Assembly: GCF_000424465.1 (NCBI RefSeq)
Contig: NZ_AUJY01000007.1
Coordinates: forward strand, 62,001-126,000
Reading direction: 5' to 3'
Length of the DNA stretch: 64,000 nt
DNA from: Butyrivibrio hungatei NK4A153
Lineage (GTDB): Bacteria; Bacillota; Clostridia; Lachnospirales; Lachnospiraceae
The translations under genes and the position numbers were made by a program. Position 1 is the stretch's first letter; each line of letters starts with the position of its first letter. This document shows positions 9,830-19,272 of this stretch, piece by piece. Below the pieces are notes generated by a model that was not told where the DNA came from, did not search any database, and saw nothing but the letters and a program-made list of their open reading frames with translations.

Positions 9830-10789
9830 TCAATTTTTGTCTTTTTCTTGCAAGTCGGACGCTGTTTTGCGCTTTCTGTACAATGTAAGCGTCTGGCAAA
9901 TAATCAGACAATACAGTGATATCCTTGTAAAAAAATCTCTTACTATATAAATTGAACACATTGTGACATCATCAATCGTATATTTATAATTTTCCATCAC
10001 GCCACGCCTTTCATTAAGCATCCAGTCAATATCATTATTCACAGCATTTATTATTCCCCATATCGAAGCAACCATAATGATATTTACCCATAATTTACGT
10101 TTTGAGCCTCGTATAAAAAAGAAATACACAGCAATTAACAGCATTATTGCAGGACAATATAAGGGTATATCACATTCAAGACATATCGAAATATATTCCC
10201 ATATACGATTTCTAAATGATCTGTTAAAAACCTCAAGCTGATTCCTAAAGTTGTAGCAAAACCAAAAGAAGCCATCGATTAAAAAAATCAAAAAATACGA
10301 AATCAAAACAATCCCGATTCTCTTTGGAGTCTGAATATCTTTTATCGCACAATATAAGCCATAAGAAAAAATTGCTATATATAACGCCTCTATTGTATAA
10401 CCAAAAACACTTCCAAAATCGAAAGTTCCATAATCAAACCTTTTAGGTCCCTGTATTCCATACCATTCCATTAGATACTGCATATGCTCTATAAACCGTA
10501 GCAAAACTATACTCATAAATAGAGCAATCGTAACGTTGTTAGCTACCTTACTTTCAATAACGGGACTCTTTTCCACAACTTCCGGCATATCCTCGTCGGA
10601 TAACAAACTATCGATACTAAGCCCCAGTATCCGGGCTATTCTCTTTGTCGTCACAAGATCCGGATAACGGTCGCCACGCTCCCAACGCGAGATTGACTGT
10701 CTCGTTACATATAATTGTTCTGCAAGAGCCTGTTGTGACAGCCCCTTTTCCTCTCTAGCTTTTTTCAGTCGCTCCCCAAACTCAACCAT
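9830..10789 (-). CDS. Membrane-anchored XRE transcriptional regulator (copy 1)
   Basis: Residues 5-60 form an XRE helix-turn-helix (FGERLKKAREEKGLSQQALA, LYVTRQSISRWERGDRYPDL). After a short linker, from about residue 90 on, there are five or six hydrophobic segments (NNVTIALFMSIVLLRFIEHM, IGIVLISYFLIFLIDGFFWF, YCPAIMLLIAVYFFF and others), ending in LYRKRKTASDLQEKDKN. It is a paralogue of 14349-15305 with the same tail, and the 75 bases covering the 3' end are almost identical in both. It begins 29 bases after the solute-binding lipoprotein gene, so the lipoprotein may feed a signal to it across the membrane. No ligand is known. Confidence 0.8.
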   Translation of the reverse strand: MVEFGERLKKAREEKGLSQQALAEQLYVTRQSISRWERGDRYPDLVTTKRIARILGLSIDSLLSDEDMPEVVEKSPVIESKVANNVTIALFMSIVLLRFIEHMQYLMEWYGIQGPKRFDYGTFDFGSVFGYTIEALYIAIFSYGLYCAIKDIQTPKRIGIVLISYFLIFLIDGFFWFCYNFRNQLEVFNRSFRNRIWEYISICLECDIPLYCPAIMLLIAVYFFFIRGSKRKLWVNIIMVASIWGIINAVNNDIDWMLNERRGVMENYKYTIDDVTMCSIYIVRDFFTRISLYCLIICQTLTLYRKRKTASDLQEKDKN

Positions 10790-14297: not shown

Positions 14298-14372
14298 TAT
14301 ATGCCCGAATTTTTTTTGAATGCTTCTTATTTTCTGTTATGAAACATCTCAATTTTTGTCTTTTTCTTGCAA
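14298..14372. repeat. 75-base repeat shared by the 3' ends of both XRE-membrane genes
   Basis: The segment from TTATATGCCCG to TTTTTCTTGCAA at 14298-14372 is almost identical to 9780-9854. It covers the last codons (LQEKDKN) and about 50 bases past the stop in both places. Outside it the genes diverge strongly, which fits a duplication with later gene conversion at the 3' end. Confidence 0.75.
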
Positions 14373-15305
14373 TTTCATAGCTGTTAGTCTCTTCCTATAT
14401 AAAACATTCGACTGATAGACAATCAAAACAAATACCGCAATTCCAAGCACAAAATCTGCTGCTGTCTCTCTGGCAGTTGTTGTGACCATTGACGCTGCCG
14501 GGAAAAACATTCTCGCTTTGCTTATGTCATGGTACGTATTCAACATATTGCCGATTATACCGACAATTGAGATTACTGTGAACATATTTACCCATACTTT
14601 ACGATTATTTTCGCGTATAAAAAAGAAATATGATGCAAGCGCTCCAATTCCGCCCGGAACAGTAGCCCGCATAAGTTCAACCACTACTTTCCTAAGCCAC
14701 CGCATACTATCCGTGGCTCCGTCAATCATAGAAGCATAAAACGATCCAAAATAATCGATTACTATAATCCCATCAAGCAAAAACAATGTAATGAAATAGC
14801 TCATCATCATCACACCTATTTTTTTAGGTGTTAACGTATCTTTTATTGCGTGATATAAAGCAAATGAAAAAACAATGACATAAACTATATATCTCAGAAT
14901 AACAATTCTCTCATCAACGGAACCCTGCATATAGTTCATCGGCCTCGATTCAGACAAAGATTTAAATGACTGAATAAAAAATATCATTGCCCTCTCAGCT
15001 ATTTTTATAAAAAAAGATATAACTACAACGGCATATAGTGCAATTACCATATTATTTACCGCTTTATTTTCAACTACCGGATTTCTTTCCGCCACTTTAA
15101 CCATCTCCTTTCCGGACAGTAGAGTATCAAGGCTCACATCCAGAATCCGAGATAGATTTTTTGTTGTAACAAGATCGGGATAACGCTCTCCGCGTTCCCA
15201 ACGTGAAACTGATTGCCTACTCACAAACAATTGATCCGCAAGAGATTGCTGCGTCATCCCTTTCTTTTCTCTCGCTATTCTTAGTTGCTCGCCAAATTCT
15301 ACCAT
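14349..15305 (-). CDS. Membrane-anchored XRE transcriptional regulator (copy 2)
   Basis: 318 residues, paralogous to 9830-10789. The HTH (FGEQLRIAREKKGMTQQSLA, LFVSRQSVSRWERGERYPDL) is nearly the same, so both may bind the same operator. The membrane part differs more: NMVIALYAVVVISFFIKIAE, YIVYVIVFSFALYHAIK, IGVMMMSYFITLFLLDGIIV, VLGIAVFVLIVYQS. It has a separate promoter (15363-15391) with a perfect-armed palindrome upstream. Such membrane-bound one-component regulators sense lipid or cell-wall stress in other Firmicutes; the stimulus here is unknown. Confidence 0.8.
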   Translation of the reverse strand: MVEFGEQLRIAREKKGMTQQSLADQLFVSRQSVSRWERGERYPDLVTTKNLSRILDVSLDTLLSGKEMVKVAERNPVVENKAVNNMVIALYAVVVISFFIKIAERAMIFFIQSFKSLSESRPMNYMQGSVDERIVILRYIVYVIVFSFALYHAIKDTLTPKKIGVMMMSYFITLFLLDGIIVIDYFGSFYASMIDGATDSMRWLRKVVVELMRATVPGGIGALASYFFFIRENNRKVWVNMFTVISIVGIIGNMLNTYHDISKARMFFPAASMVTTTARETAADFVLGIAVFVLIVYQSNVLYRKRLTAMKLQEKDKN

Positions 15306-15475: not shown

Positions 15476-17923
15476 TCAAATTCTTGGTCCAATAACCCCG
15501 TCCCCCAGGGTCATTTCTTCATCAAAAATATCTACATAACCTTTCAGCGAAAGAGCTTTTTGACGAAGTGTCTTGGAATGTCCCCAGACCAAAATGTGGG
15601 ATTTTCCTTTTCCGTTCTTGGCTTCCTGAATGAGATTGGCTGCGGCGCTGTTTCCGTCAAAGGCAACGACCATCGATGGTCTTCTCTCAAATATCTCATA
15701 GTTAAAGCTCTTGTAAATGCCCATTCCCTGAGTCTCCGTAGAAACCCGAATCCTGACATTATAAGAAAGAAGCATATCTTTTTCCTTCTCGGTGATCATG
15801 GCGGGAACAACCGCATATACAATGAAATTCTTCTTGTTGTTATCAAGAAGGTACTTTTCATATCCGGACAGCTTATGTCCTATGACAAAGCAGACTTCCT
15901 CAGGACTAAGCTTATCCATAAGGGCATCAAGCTGCGCAGCACCTTCCTTGGTAACTCTTGTAGCTCTGTTCTCTGTATTAAAGCTGCCTCCAAGAAGCAC
16001 GACCGGGAAATGTGACCAGGAAATTTCTCTTATGCGATCCTTGAGTTCTTTATTGGCATCGAGTAAAAGATCTTTTGAAGAAGGTCTCTTTTTCGATATC
16101 TTAACGGCTTTCATCTTCTCAAGAAGCACTTCTTCCATATCCCTGTCTTTTATAAGAGCATTGAACGCTTCTTTCTTGGCCGCGTAAGATGCTCTGCTTA
16201 TCTCTATTATATCTGTCTCCGCCTGTTTCATTAGGCTAATGTCGTTATCAGAAAGTCCCAGCATCTTAACAAGTGAAAGCTGCTCGTCCACCGAATTTGT
16301 TCCGTAAAGAGCCGCTCCGTCGGTTCCCTGAACACACTTAAGCCCCTGTTTCAGATATTGCTTCAAAGGGTGCTTATCAAGTGAATTAAGGTTATTAAGT
16401 CGTACATTACTCGTAAGCTGAAACTCAAGAACCACGCCGTTTTCCTTAAGCTGTTTAAGGACTTCTTTTCCCTTCTGAGACCTCGGGCTGTAGGTATATA
16501 GACCGTGTCCAAGTCTCATACGCGGCATCTGCTGTCCGGGAGCAAGTGATTCTCTTACACACTGTATGCTGTGCGAGATGTTATCTTTCTGGCTGTCGTT
16601 CTCTCCCGCATGAACTCTTATAACAAACGAAGGATCTTTGGCCGCGATCTTCACTATCTCTTTAAAAGCGGGCTTCAAAGTTATAATGTCATTTATCTCT
16701 TCTCCAACAAAGTCGCATCCCGCCACATACGGATCAAGTGCCGTTGCTTTCAGAACTTCGAGATTCTGCTCAAGATAATTTGCCGGAGTTACCGCATCTT
16801 TAATGATCGTAAGCGGTATCCTTCTCATAGCGGCAAGAAATCTGATCATGACTCCCGTCTCTCTGTGTATGCTCGGCATAACCTCGTGCACCTGCCTTAG
16901 CATATCGATCGACTCATATTTTTTTACAAGAGTCGTGTCGCTTATTTCTGCGTAGTAGATGCCCTGCCTTTTGTAGTTTCTTGCAATCCACAGGAGCTTA
17001 TCCTGAAAAAGAGTATTGTGACAGTATTCTTCCGTTTCTTTGTCCATCAACATCTTTTCCAAAGCTCTTTTCACATCTTCGTCGGGAATCTGGGAAACGC
17101 TGTGAATATCTATCTTTTCATCACATTCTTTTCCCTTGGTAAAGATATATCTGTAAATGTAAACCTTCTCAAGATTGGTAAAAACGGCCTGTCCGTCCTT
17201 GATAACGGCAAGAGAGCCTCTAATCTTAACAATGTTCAGCTCCGCGTCATTTAAGTTATTAAGGATAAGATCCGCAAAGTTGATAAAGGTGTTGTCATCT
17301 ATTTTTCTGTCAAGATATTTACCCTGAAGTTCTGATGAAGAGAACTGTCTTGCGACTTTCTCCCTGTTCTTGAGAACCTTGATCCACTGCTTCTCAGTGA
17401 GCTCGAGATTCAGTTTTTTTACATAATACAAAGGGTATCTAATCTGATGATAGATTCCGAGCGCGATAAGAATATCCGCAGGAAGGTTGCCGTTCATATG
17501 CGTATGAAGATCGGTCCTGAACTTAAGATTCTTGTTTATATAAGTCTTGAAAACAGTCTTGTTAAGGTCAAGCTGATAGTTCTTGGTCTGGCTCATCAGT
17601 GTCTTGGCGATCGCCGGAACCGAAGCCATGACTTCAACTCTTTTATCCGGAAAGATCTTGGCTATCTCTACATCACGCAAGCTGAATATATAGCTTTCTT
17701 CATTGTTTCCGTCAATAAAACAGGGAACCTCGCCCTTTGCAACAAGCATCCCATTCTCATCCTCAGAAAGAGTCAGTTTGCATATTGCGGCGAGGTTCCT
17801 TATAAGGTTTCCGGTGTGATGGTTTGGCGTTGAAAGCACATACCACATCCTATCAAGGTCTTTGTAAAGACTTACTATAATATCTTTTTCATCATCAAGA
17901 AAAAAACATGTAAAATAAGTCAT
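15476..17923 (-). CDS. Adenosine-deaminase-like protein with SLOG-like C-terminal domain
   Basis: 815 residues, over twice the length of ordinary adenosine deaminase. After an unassigned N-terminal domain (1-130) the metal-dependent deaminase set is complete: HTH at 140-142 (TDLHTHMNGNLPADI), HAGE at 438-441, GHG with H473 and GTDG with D535. A C-terminal Rossmann-like domain, about 637-790, has VVLLGGSFN, CFVIGHKLSGYEKYL and VYAVVPAMITEKE, resembling the SLOG/LOG nucleotide-sensing fold. A role in deaminating adenosine or a nucleotide signal and binding a nucleotide is inferred. It begins 5 bases after the lipoprotein gene. It is not adjacent to an RdrA-like ATPase, so it is not an evident RADAR locus. 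Confidence 0.7.
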   Translation of the reverse strand: MTYFTCFFLDDEKDIIVSLYKDLDRMWYVLSTPNHHTGNLIRNLAAICKLTLSEDENGMLVAKGEVPCFIDGNNEESYIFSLRDVEIAKIFPDKRVEVMASVPAIAKTLMSQTKNYQLDLNKTVFKTYINKNLKFRTDLHTHMNGNLPADILIALGIYHQIRYPLYYVKKLNLELTEKQWIKVLKNREKVARQFSSSELQGKYLDRKIDDNTFINFADLILNNLNDAELNIVKIRGSLAVIKDGQAVFTNLEKVYIYRYIFTKGKECDEKIDIHSVSQIPDEDVKRALEKMLMDKETEEYCHNTLFQDKLLWIARNYKRQGIYYAEISDTTLVKKYESIDMLRQVHEVMPSIHRETGVMIRFLAAMRRIPLTIIKDAVTPANYLEQNLEVLKATALDPYVAGCDFVGEEINDIITLKPAFKEIVKIAAKDPSFVIRVHAGENDSQKDNISHSIQCVRESLAPGQQMPRMRLGHGLYTYSPRSQKGKEVLKQLKENGVVLEFQLTSNVRLNNLNSLDKHPLKQYLKQGLKCVQGTDGAALYGTNSVDEQLSLVKMLGLSDNDISLMKQAETDIIEISRASYAAKKEAFNALIKDRDMEEVLLEKMKAVKISKKRPSSKDLLLDANKELKDRIREISWSHFPVVLLGGSFNTENRATRVTKEGAAQLDALMDKLSPEEVCFVIGHKLSGYEKYLLDNNKKNFIVYAVVPAMITEKEKDMLLSYNVRIRVSTETQGMGIYKSFNYEIFERRPSMVVAFDGNSAAANLIQEAKNGKGKSHILVWGHSKTLRQKALSLKGYVDIFDEEMTLGDGVIGPRI

Positions 17924-17928
17924 AAACG

Positions 17929-18663
17929 TTATCCTTCCTTCATGTGCTTCATAAGCTCATCAATCGTAAGCTCTTTTCCCGTCTGCTGCTCATAGATTTC
18001 GGTGAAAGAAAGTCCCTGGTCCGCAGGGTTAAGGTCAACGTCTTTGGTTTTGGCTTTCCATCTGTTGTCATCAGGAAGAAATGCATAAGCAATATTATGC
18101 TGTTCCCACTCGTAAGCCATGTCATCGGGAGTTCTGTATGACTCCATGTCTCTTCCGTGCACCTGATGCTCTTCTATCAGAGCCGAGCAGATGATCTTCA
18201 TATCCTCATTATTAGAAATCTTGTAGGAGTCAATTATCTTCCAGTTGTCCTTGGTATATACCGCGGAAAATTCCTCATTTCCATAGGTAAAAGCGTAATT
18301 TTTGCCTTTTCCGTCAACATCGTGAAGCTCGATATCGGAAGGGTCGCTTAAGATTCCGTCTTCTTCCAGATTTTCTTTTACTTCCTTAGCCTTCTCTACG
18401 CCTTTTTTAATCTTCTTTTTTGCCTCAGAGTCAGCATCGTTAAAGCCTTCTATCTCTATTCCGATACCAAATTCAGACTCAAGATAAGAGCTTGCATCGG
18501 AAACAAATCCGGTCATAACGTCAGAAACGGTTGCTAGTCCCGAAGAGATATCTTCCGTCTCCTCAAACTGCGAAAGAAAATCTCCGCATCCTACAAAGCA
18601 CATCACCATAACAAGCACAAGTGCCAGGATTATTATTTTGTAATTATAATTTTTTCTACCCAT
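17929..18663 (-). CDS. Lipoprotein of unknown function
   Basis: 244 residues. The N-terminus (KIIILALVLVMVMCFVGC) is a lipoprotein signal with the modified Cys at position 26. The mature part starts with acidic, helical sequence (EETEDISSGLATVSDVMTG, then AKKKIKKGVEKAKEVKENL). A compact alpha/beta stretch follows (GKGKNYAFTYGNEEFSAVY, KDNWKIIDSYKISNNEDM), and the end is EIYEQQTGKELTIDELM. No known family. It is the first gene of a two-gene unit with the deaminase-SLOG protein. The promoter -10 TATAAT lies only seven bases before the ATG, so the message may be leaderless. Confidence 0.65.
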   Translation of the reverse strand: MGRKNYNYKIIILALVLVMVMCFVGCGDFLSQFEETEDISSGLATVSDVMTGFVSDASSYLESEFGIGIEIEGFNDADSEAKKKIKKGVEKAKEVKENLEEDGILSDPSDIELHDVDGKGKNYAFTYGNEEFSAVYTKDNWKIIDSYKISNNEDMKIICSALIEEHQVHGRDMESYRTPDDMAYEWEQHNIAYAFLPDDNRWKAKTKDVDLNPADQGLSFTEIYEQQTGKELTIDELMKHMKEG

Positions 18664-18795: not shown

Positions 18796-19272
18796 ATGTC
18801 AGATACAATTACACTTACAATTCCAAAGCAGAAATCAATTGCACTTATCGCTCATGACGGCAAAAAGCCTGAGCTTATCAAATGGTGCAAAGATAATGCC
18901 GAGACATTAAAAAAGCATTTTCTCTGCGGCACAGGTACAACGGCAAGAATGATCACAGATGCCACAAATCTTCCTGTACGCGGATATAATTCAGGCCCTC
19001 TTGGCGGCGATCAGCAGATCGGTGCAAAGATCGTAGAAGGAAAGATCAATTTCGTAGTATTCTTCTCAGATCCTCTCACAGCAGCACCTCACGATCCCGA
19101 CGTTAAGGCTCTTATGAGAATCGCACAGGTATACGATATTCCTTTTGCAAACAACAAGGCTACGGCTGATTTCCTTCTCCACTCAAGTTTTATGGATGAA
19201 GAGTATGACCACGATGTAATAAACTTCAAGCAGAATATTGCACAGCGCGCTGAGACACTCCCGAATGAATGA
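18796..19272 (+). CDS. mgsA: Methylglyoxal synthase
   Basis: 158 residues, typical MgsA length. The enzyme converts dihydroxyacetone phosphate to methylglyoxal and phosphate, a bypass of lower glycolysis under phosphate limitation or sugar stress. Family residues are visible: ALIAHDGKK (the active-site His), FLCGTGTTARMI and GYNSGPLGGDQQIGAKI with the catalytic Asp of GGDQQIG. FVVFFSDPLTAAPHDPDVKA includes the second conserved Asp and His. An ideal RBS (AAGGAGGAG) precedes the ATG. It is the only plus-strand gene between 15 and 25 kb and is probably monocistronic. Confidence 0.95.
   Translation: MSDTITLTIPKQKSIALIAHDGKKPELIKWCKDNAETLKKHFLCGTGTTARMITDATNLPVRGYNSGPLGGDQQIGAKIVEGKINFVVFFSDPLTAAPHDPDVKALMRIAQVYDIPFANNKATADFLLHSSFMDEEYDHDVINFKQNIAQRAETLPNE

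Follow-up and report, generated by a model that had tools for sequence, protein, structure and literature searches.

What does an adenosine-deaminase-type protein do when it is joined to a domain resembling a nucleotide sensor, and when its gene lies 5 nucleotides (nt) from that of a lipoprotein? The question is raised by a locus of Butyrivibrio hungatei NK4A153 on contig NZ_AUJY01000007.1 (positions 62,001 to 126,000 of the forward strand), a stretch of 64,000 nt that was analysed as a whole and is called the window here; coordinates are those of the window. The original prediction for this locus, made from the letters of the DNA, was of a possible signalling or defence pair, consisting of the lipoprotein and a large metal-dependent deaminase with a SLOG-like C-terminal domain. 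To our knowledge, phage defence is the only setting in which nucleotide deaminases gated by a sensor have been described (CARF-ADA proteins, and RADAR with its separate partner). The reading that we favour, to which we would give roughly four chances in ten, is that the protein works alone, as an adenine-nucleotide deaminase under the control of a SLOG ligand, and that it probably serves in nucleotide-pool control rather than in phage defence.

Protein architecture and conservation

The gene, referred to below as the deaminase-SLOG gene, and the parts of its product are placed as follows:

15476-17923, minus strand: whole open reading frame (ORF) of the deaminase-SLOG protein, 815 amino acids (aa), ATG start
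17522-17923, minus strand: N-terminal beta-rich domain, residues 1-134, without known family; block predicted local distance difference test (pLDDT) scores of 86-94 for residues 1-110
16142-17521, minus strand: adenosine-deaminase-type barrel, residues 135-594, by Pfam A_deaminase, Foldseek and invariant catalytic residues
15524-16012, minus strand: predicted C-terminal SLOG-like Rossmann domain, residues 638-800, by AlphaFold2 model, Foldseek and 37 invariant columns of 163

This layout of an N-terminal domain, a deaminase and a C-terminal Rossmann-like domain had been anticipated, and it is supported both by Pfam and by a full-length AlphaFold2 model built on a 40-row alignment (mean pLDDT 85.4, predicted template-modelling score (pTM) 0.85). 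The protein is about 2.5 times as long as a canonical adenosine deaminase (ADA), in agreement with the earlier remark that it exceeds twice the normal length. Its barrel has extra helices and a large insertion between the HTH motif and the start of the Pfam match at residue 314, and a variable linker (residues 595-637) lies between the barrel and the C-terminal domain. For the N-terminal domain the best Pfam E was no better than 0.07 and the best PDB-sequence E no better than 0.35.

The alignment used for comparing members was drawn from 88 long relatives, the window's own protein included; three were dropped (L105, a split ORF; L081, cut by a contig end; L008, a fragment), and from the 85 left over 40 were taken. 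As the 39 other rows are 49-78% identical to the window protein, and the nearest relative is 96% identical, the 815-aa ORF is far beyond chance. Mean pairwise identity is 0.65 in the N-terminal domain, 0.72 in the barrel, 0.43 in the linker and 0.63 in the C-terminal domain, and invariant columns number 23/134, 152/460, 0/43 and 37/163, respectively. The two terminal domains are therefore under constraint as well. The gene is usually intact; in the draft genome of B. fibrisolvens 16/4 (L105:8001-10460) it is broken into three ORFs, and in G655, G643 and G639 a stop is flagged within the match, which could be a break or merely the natural end.

Active site and substrate

The motifs HTH (H140/H142), HAGE (H438-E441), GHG (G472-G474) and GTDG (G533-G536) are found at the places claimed for them, and the metal and catalytic residues H140, H142, H438, E441, H473 and D535 do not vary among the 40 aligned members. 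The barrel fold and the set of HxH, HxxE, H and D that the adenosine-deaminase superfamily requires are therefore present. Pfam A_deaminase matches at E 7.6e-17 (61.8 bits against a cut-off of 27), covering residues 314-565 only. The PDB-sequence matches are all of the adenosine-deaminase family (best E 3.8e-8 with the single sequence and 3.2e-9 by profile), and a Foldseek search of the PDB finds adenosine deaminases too (best E 3.5e-10). The canonical adenosine deaminase model, NCBIfam TIGR01430, is not reached, at 56.9 bits against a cut-off of 216.55.

The "full deaminase set" of the original prediction thus holds for the metal and catalytic residues, but not for the two Asp positions of substrate recognition. 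Both canonical Asp residues are absent from all 40 aligned members: the position of mouse-ADA D19 holds Asn in 39 of them and Ser in the other, and that of D296 is Gly throughout. Among nine comparison ADA-family ORFs, which were motif-filtered from 28 loci and so are not an unbiased sample, the D19 position holds Asp in seven, Glu in one and Gly in one, never Asn or Ser, and the D296 position holds Asp in four and Asn in five, never Gly.

Related enzymes offer a guide to the substrate. TaqCad1 has Gly and Asn at the D19/D296 positions, deaminates adenosine weakly and converts ATP to ITP (PMC12669630, excerpt). Cad1 converts ATP to ITP when activated by cAn (PMC11645235, excerpt), and RdrB deaminates triphosphorylated substrates and not mono- or unphosphorylated ones (PMC9994260, excerpt). 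Because these three act on nucleotides, our preferred guess, which is by analogy, is that the barrel would act on an adenine nucleotide rather than on free adenosine, and we lean somewhat towards it.

C-terminal domain

Modelled alone, residues 622-800 give a confident AlphaFold2 prediction (pLDDT 91.9, pTM 0.90). Foldseek places this model near H. pylori DprA (4ljl; probability 1.00, TM-score (template-modelling score) 0.57 by query), the molybdenum-cofactor carrier protein (6y01; 1.00, 0.62) and TRPM4 (6bqr; 0.99, 0.51). A probability of at least 0.75 was reached in 16 of the best 50 rows against the PDB, all of them DprA, molybdenum-cofactor carrier protein (which we take to be a SLOG member) or TRPM. 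The invariant residues of the domain sit in loops that follow predicted strands (GGSFN, G..GYE, VP, RVS and DGN), a clustering that would be expected of a ligand site. The motif GGxGT, presumably that of LOG-type glycosidases, is not present within residues 638-800. Among viral structures the best named SLOG-like row was a DUF2493 phage protein (probability 0.93, E 0.074), with no row under E 0.015.

On the strength of the model we consider it quite probable that the domain has the SLOG fold. SLOG is named after Smf/DprA and LOG, MHR1-2 of TRPM channels is a SLOG domain, and in zebrafish TRPM2 ADP-ribose binds in MHR1-2 (PMC13143021, excerpt). In ThsA, a C-terminal SLOG domain binds isomers of cADPR and controls the NADase activity of the protein (PMC10022894, excerpt).

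Relation to known systems

The nearest parallel is Cad1, the CARF-fused adenosine deaminase of type III CRISPR (PDB 8z3k, 9mmw and 9of1), in which an ADA barrel is likewise fused to a Rossmann-like nucleotide-sensor domain, and in which, as TaqCad1 shows, the positions of mouse-ADA D19 and D296 are likewise both substituted; the structural match to 8z3k has E 1.7e-8 and a root-mean-square deviation of 4.7. The two differ in that the sensor of Cad1 is an N-terminal CARF domain, whereas here it would be a C-terminal SLOG-like fold, with an extra beta domain at the N-terminus; no N-terminal CARF was found, the CARF_ADA match being limited to barrel residues 310-563 and residues 1-134 matching no family. 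The protein also lacks any CRISPR link that we could find, and its gene is near-core in the genus rather than accessory.

RdrB of RADAR is likewise a large deaminase with an N-terminal extension and a core divided by insertion, three insertions being described, and its His/Glu spacing (H152, H154, H498, E501, H530; PMC9994260, excerpt) is similar to that seen here (H140, H142, H438, E441, H473). No RdrA partner was found here, however, there was no PADLOC match to RdrB, RdrB is not among the best 50 structural matches, and the excerpt of PMC9994260 says nothing of a SLOG-like part in RdrB. The C-terminal domain shares its predicted fold and its conserved post-strand loops with the SLOG superfamily (DprA, LOG/molybdenum-cofactor carrier, TRPM MHR1-2, ThsA), but no detectable sequence relation. 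From Thoeris the protein differs in that ThsA has a SIR2-type NADase, whereas here there is a Pfam deaminase domain and no SIR2. No description of a SLOG-deaminase architecture was found in the portions of the full-text literature that were covered; the founding survey of SLOG proteins (Burroughs et al. 2015, cited in PMC13143021) may list it.

Distribution and descent

The gene is near-core in the genus, with one long copy per genome: it occurs in 58 of 79 genomes and in 39 of the 47 of good quality, and a second full-length copy in none. Additional matches are short and barrel-only (G621, G640) or partial (G655); in G645 and G671 the gene lies in pieces on two contigs, and G648 has a fragment only. 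In the order Lachnospirales, at E 1e-12, it was detected in 38/392 genomes, from 8/174 genera and two families. A sample of the family held the long protein in 8/200 genomes, the window's own included, the other 42 matches being barrel parts, mostly in ADA-sized frames. Within the window's own phylum, to which the profile searches were confined, the C-domain profile found 2/398 genomes, each from the genus of the window, and one weak match besides, in a sample that held few known carrier genera. In another family of the phylum (G242:C20, L113) a 292-aa frame has a weak C-domain profile match over 60 residues (E 3.4e-4), possibly by chance. The best 80 of 110 relatives in a genome-contig collection chiefly bear the names Butyrivibrio, Pseudobutyrivibrio, Lachnospira, Acetitomaculum or unclassified Lachnospiraceae.

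On a gene tree of the 40 aligned members, 18 of which carry no genus label and the deepest of which are long branches, genus labels need 8 changes, the minimum possible, against 12.3 in shuffles. The tree is consistent with mostly vertical descent but is no proof of it, and we regard such descent as probable from the sequences compared.

Evidence against the proposed function

Several of our results weigh against the reading that we favour. For the C-terminal domain, the best Foldseek E is 0.022, with none below 0.02, so that the case for SLOG is one of fold. With Pfam nothing better than E 0.07 was obtained for the domain, the PDB gave no sequence match, and in hhalign comparisons the alignments of DprA and LDcluster4 reached probabilities of 0.5 and 0.6 percent, lower than those of eight control families, the C-domain alignment being shallow (effective sequence number, Neff, 2.2); the top hhalign row was itself a control, the family of the neighbouring lipoprotein, at 12.5%. 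With Pfam, PDB and hhalign all negative, an assignment to SLOG by sequence was rejected, and it is in the fold that the original prediction of a SLOG resemblance holds. The D19 and D296 positions do not by themselves fix the substrate, because putting both Asp residues back into TaqCad1 failed to rescue adenosine deamination (PMC12669630, excerpt), and the pair found here (Asn/Gly) differs from that of TaqCad1 (Gly/Asn). On the gene tree neither Butyrivibrio (3 label changes) nor Pseudobutyrivibrio (2) forms a single clade, so some transfer is possible. Last, strong canonical ADA genes are rarer in good-quality carriers (3/39) than in good-quality non-carriers (4/8; p 0.011), in a test picked post hoc and without correction for kinship, whose count includes three ADA genes in which a stop is flagged (G613, G633, G638); over all genus genomes the figures are 5/58 and 5/21 (p 0.12). 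A strong canonical ADA was here a PF00962 match at E 1e-60 or better, and the weaker ADA-like genes left out of the count occur in many carriers, among them the window's genome. That genome holds a second ADA-family gene (L120:3863-4825, G000:C9), a divergent protein of 320 aa with altered motifs (DLHNHFVLGG, HVGE, QHG, NSDD); about 1.8 kb upstream of it lies a gene that we take to be GMP-synthase-like.

The scarcity of strong canonical ADA genes in carriers would also fit an ordinary purine-salvage deaminase, acting on adenosine, N6-substituted adenosine or adenine, in which the extra domains would serve folding, oligomerisation or mild feedback. Although we think it unlikely, this is a serious rival, aided by the weak, post hoc anticorrelation with ADA genes, and the A_deaminase and PDB adenosine-deaminase matches and the near-core distribution speak for it as well. 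It has more difficulty with a score so far under the NCBIfam adenosine-deaminase cut-off, with the replacement of both adenosine-recognition Asp positions by residues that are nearly fixed, and with extra domains conserved nearly as well as the barrel; the complementarity itself carries the limits given above.

That the protein is an antiphage effector like those of RADAR and Cad1, with infection raising a SLOG ligand that unleashes runaway conversion of ATP to ITP, is in our judgement improbable. The analogy with RdrB, Cad1 and the SLOG domain of ThsA suggests it, and CARF_ADA, with matches in 28 of the 40 members at E up to 10, is the one defence family that was hit in more than two of them. 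PADLOC gave no RdrB match in these members, on our presumption that it contains an RdrB model. Csm1 exceeded its cut-off in none of the 79 genus genomes (16 genomes had weaker matches, that of the window not among them; Cmr2 was not searched). Matches to phages (4 of 4 records listed) and plasmids (20 of 23 listed) lie within the barrel and span no more than 25% of the protein, at 26-30% identity; the C-terminal domain had no match in the plasmid collection and no confirmed relative in the viral contig collection, and PHROGs had no match for the protein. Carriage by mobile or viral elements was accordingly rejected. A defence role, as originally proposed, is less likely because the gene is near-core, no mobile or viral copies were found and Csm1 never passed its cut-off in the genus; the single long copy, the genus-clustered tree, the lack of a constant neighbour and the housekeeping character of the scanned neighbours (see below) tell against it as well.

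It seems to us distinctly improbable that the protein is another metal-dependent hydrolase of this superfamily, one whose substrate is not an adenine compound and whose product or cofactor is bound by the SLOG domain. The loss of both purine/ribose-recognition Asp positions would suit it, as would a weak Pfam Amidohydro_1 match (E 0.025), but the PDB-sequence matches are all to the adenosine-deaminase family, as are the Foldseek rows listed (best 50), save for an engineered hydrolase and a COG1816 amidohydrolase.

Lipoprotein gene and genomic neighbourhood

Four further features describe the surroundings of the deaminase-SLOG gene:

17929-18663, minus strand: lipoprotein ORF, 244 aa, upstream neighbour of the deaminase gene, perhaps on one transcript with it here, not a conserved partner
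15430-15408, minus strand: terminator-like hairpin 3' of the deaminase gene, one of 6 such sites in the window against 3.3 expected
18698-18670, minus strand: promoter-like site 5' of the lipoprotein gene, 11/12 matches, one of 12 such sites against 8.3 expected
18796-19272, divergent from the lipoprotein gene: MGS-domain gene, by Pfam

The spacer from the lipoprotein ORF to the deaminase ORF is indeed 5 nt (17924-17928), and AAGGAAGG, which resembles a ribosome site, lies inside the last codons of the lipoprotein gene. A single transcript is plausible, and no better than plausible, because the promoter-like and terminator-like counts (12 against 8.3 and 6 against 3.3 in shuffles of the whole window) are but a modest excess over background. 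The lipoprotein, with LVMVMCFVGC as what we take to be its lipobox, matches no Pfam family at an E better than 0.07, in line with the earlier statement that it belongs to no known family; the family itself is conserved (55 of 79 genus genomes).

That lipoprotein and deaminase form one functional pair, as the spacing, the possible shared transcript in the window and six genus genomes with the same adjacency might suggest, is hardly credible, as they stand apart in 43 of the 49 genomes that hold both, and each is found without the other (lipoprotein in 6 genomes, deaminase in 9 without a detected lipoprotein). In the six, the lipoprotein gene is immediately upstream; in another 5 it lies 1.4-7.6 kb from the deaminase gene (downstream in 2 of them); in 4 the two share a contig more than 300 kb apart; and in 34 they are on different contigs, among which fragmented assembly may hide a few neighbours. 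In G599 the distance of 1.1 Mb on a long contig is a true separation. The lipoprotein was on these grounds rejected as a conserved partner. It adjoins an MGS-type gene in L032, L033, L036, L040 and L047, and not in L052 or L097, which suggests that it is native to the spot beside the MGS gene and that the deaminase gene arrived beside it, the two being neighbours through local gene order only. Half of what the original prediction had named as evidence against itself was thus found: the lipoprotein is not conserved beside the deaminase, yet the C-terminal domain aligns to no sequence family.

Other neighbours are no more constant. No neighbour family occurs near the deaminase-SLOG gene in more than 15 of 88 loci, and conserved neighbours were rejected; these counts are rough, since short loci are among them and two genomes or more were entered twice via two collections (L002/L068, L003/L098). 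One of the commonest clusters, in 15/88 loci (e.g. L051, L055, L061, L080), is a gene one or two places upstream on the same strand that we take to be NUDIX-hydrolase-like; it is the commonest neighbour with a possible link to nucleotide chemistry. In three Butyrivibrio loci (L049, L059, L062) the gene directly upstream is presumably HD-domain nucleotidase-like.

Further upstream, beyond the MGS gene, comes a common set of housekeeping genes, which encode a histidine phosphatase, RsgA, a PASTA Ser/Thr kinase and a PP2C phosphatase. The PADLOC PD-T4-6 matches of the kinase are due to its kinase domain and are not taken as a sign of defence. As the original prediction had said, no RdrA partner is here: none appears among the matches listed for six neighbours (best 25 of 37 for the kinase, all for the others), both immediate neighbours included. 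Two Cro/CI-type helix-turn-helix regulators lie near each other in the window, at 9830-10789 (319 aa) and 14349-15305 (318 aa), the latter of which appears from its sequence to span the membrane. Rfam had no match above its gathering scores anywhere in the window.

Proposed mechanism and significance

The sequence architecture, the predicted fold, the conservation of the active site and of the loops in the SLOG-like domain, the near-core distribution and the lack of fixed partners are what we observed; for substrate, ligand, allostery and role we infer the following. The barrel of this stand-alone enzyme would hydrolytically deaminate ATP, dATP, ADP or AMP to the inosine nucleotide, and the C-terminal SLOG-fold domain would bind a small nucleotide ligand. 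This domain may switch or tune the deaminase, as CARF does in Cad1; by that analogy we put the chances of such gating at about even. The role is likely to be nucleotide-pool control or a stress response. A sharper version, in which the near-core, non-mobile protein would be a metabolic switch from ATP to ITP (or dATP to dITP) answering to an ADP-ribose-like ligand, and would be the housekeeping equivalent of the immune deaminases Cad1 and RdrB, strikes us as rather unlikely.

If the proposal is true, a conserved, partnerless and near-core member with another sensor fold would place the wiring of sensor-gated deaminases in the everyday physiology of major bacteria of the rumen and gut, and regulation of the adenine pool by SLOG ligands outside immunity would become testable.

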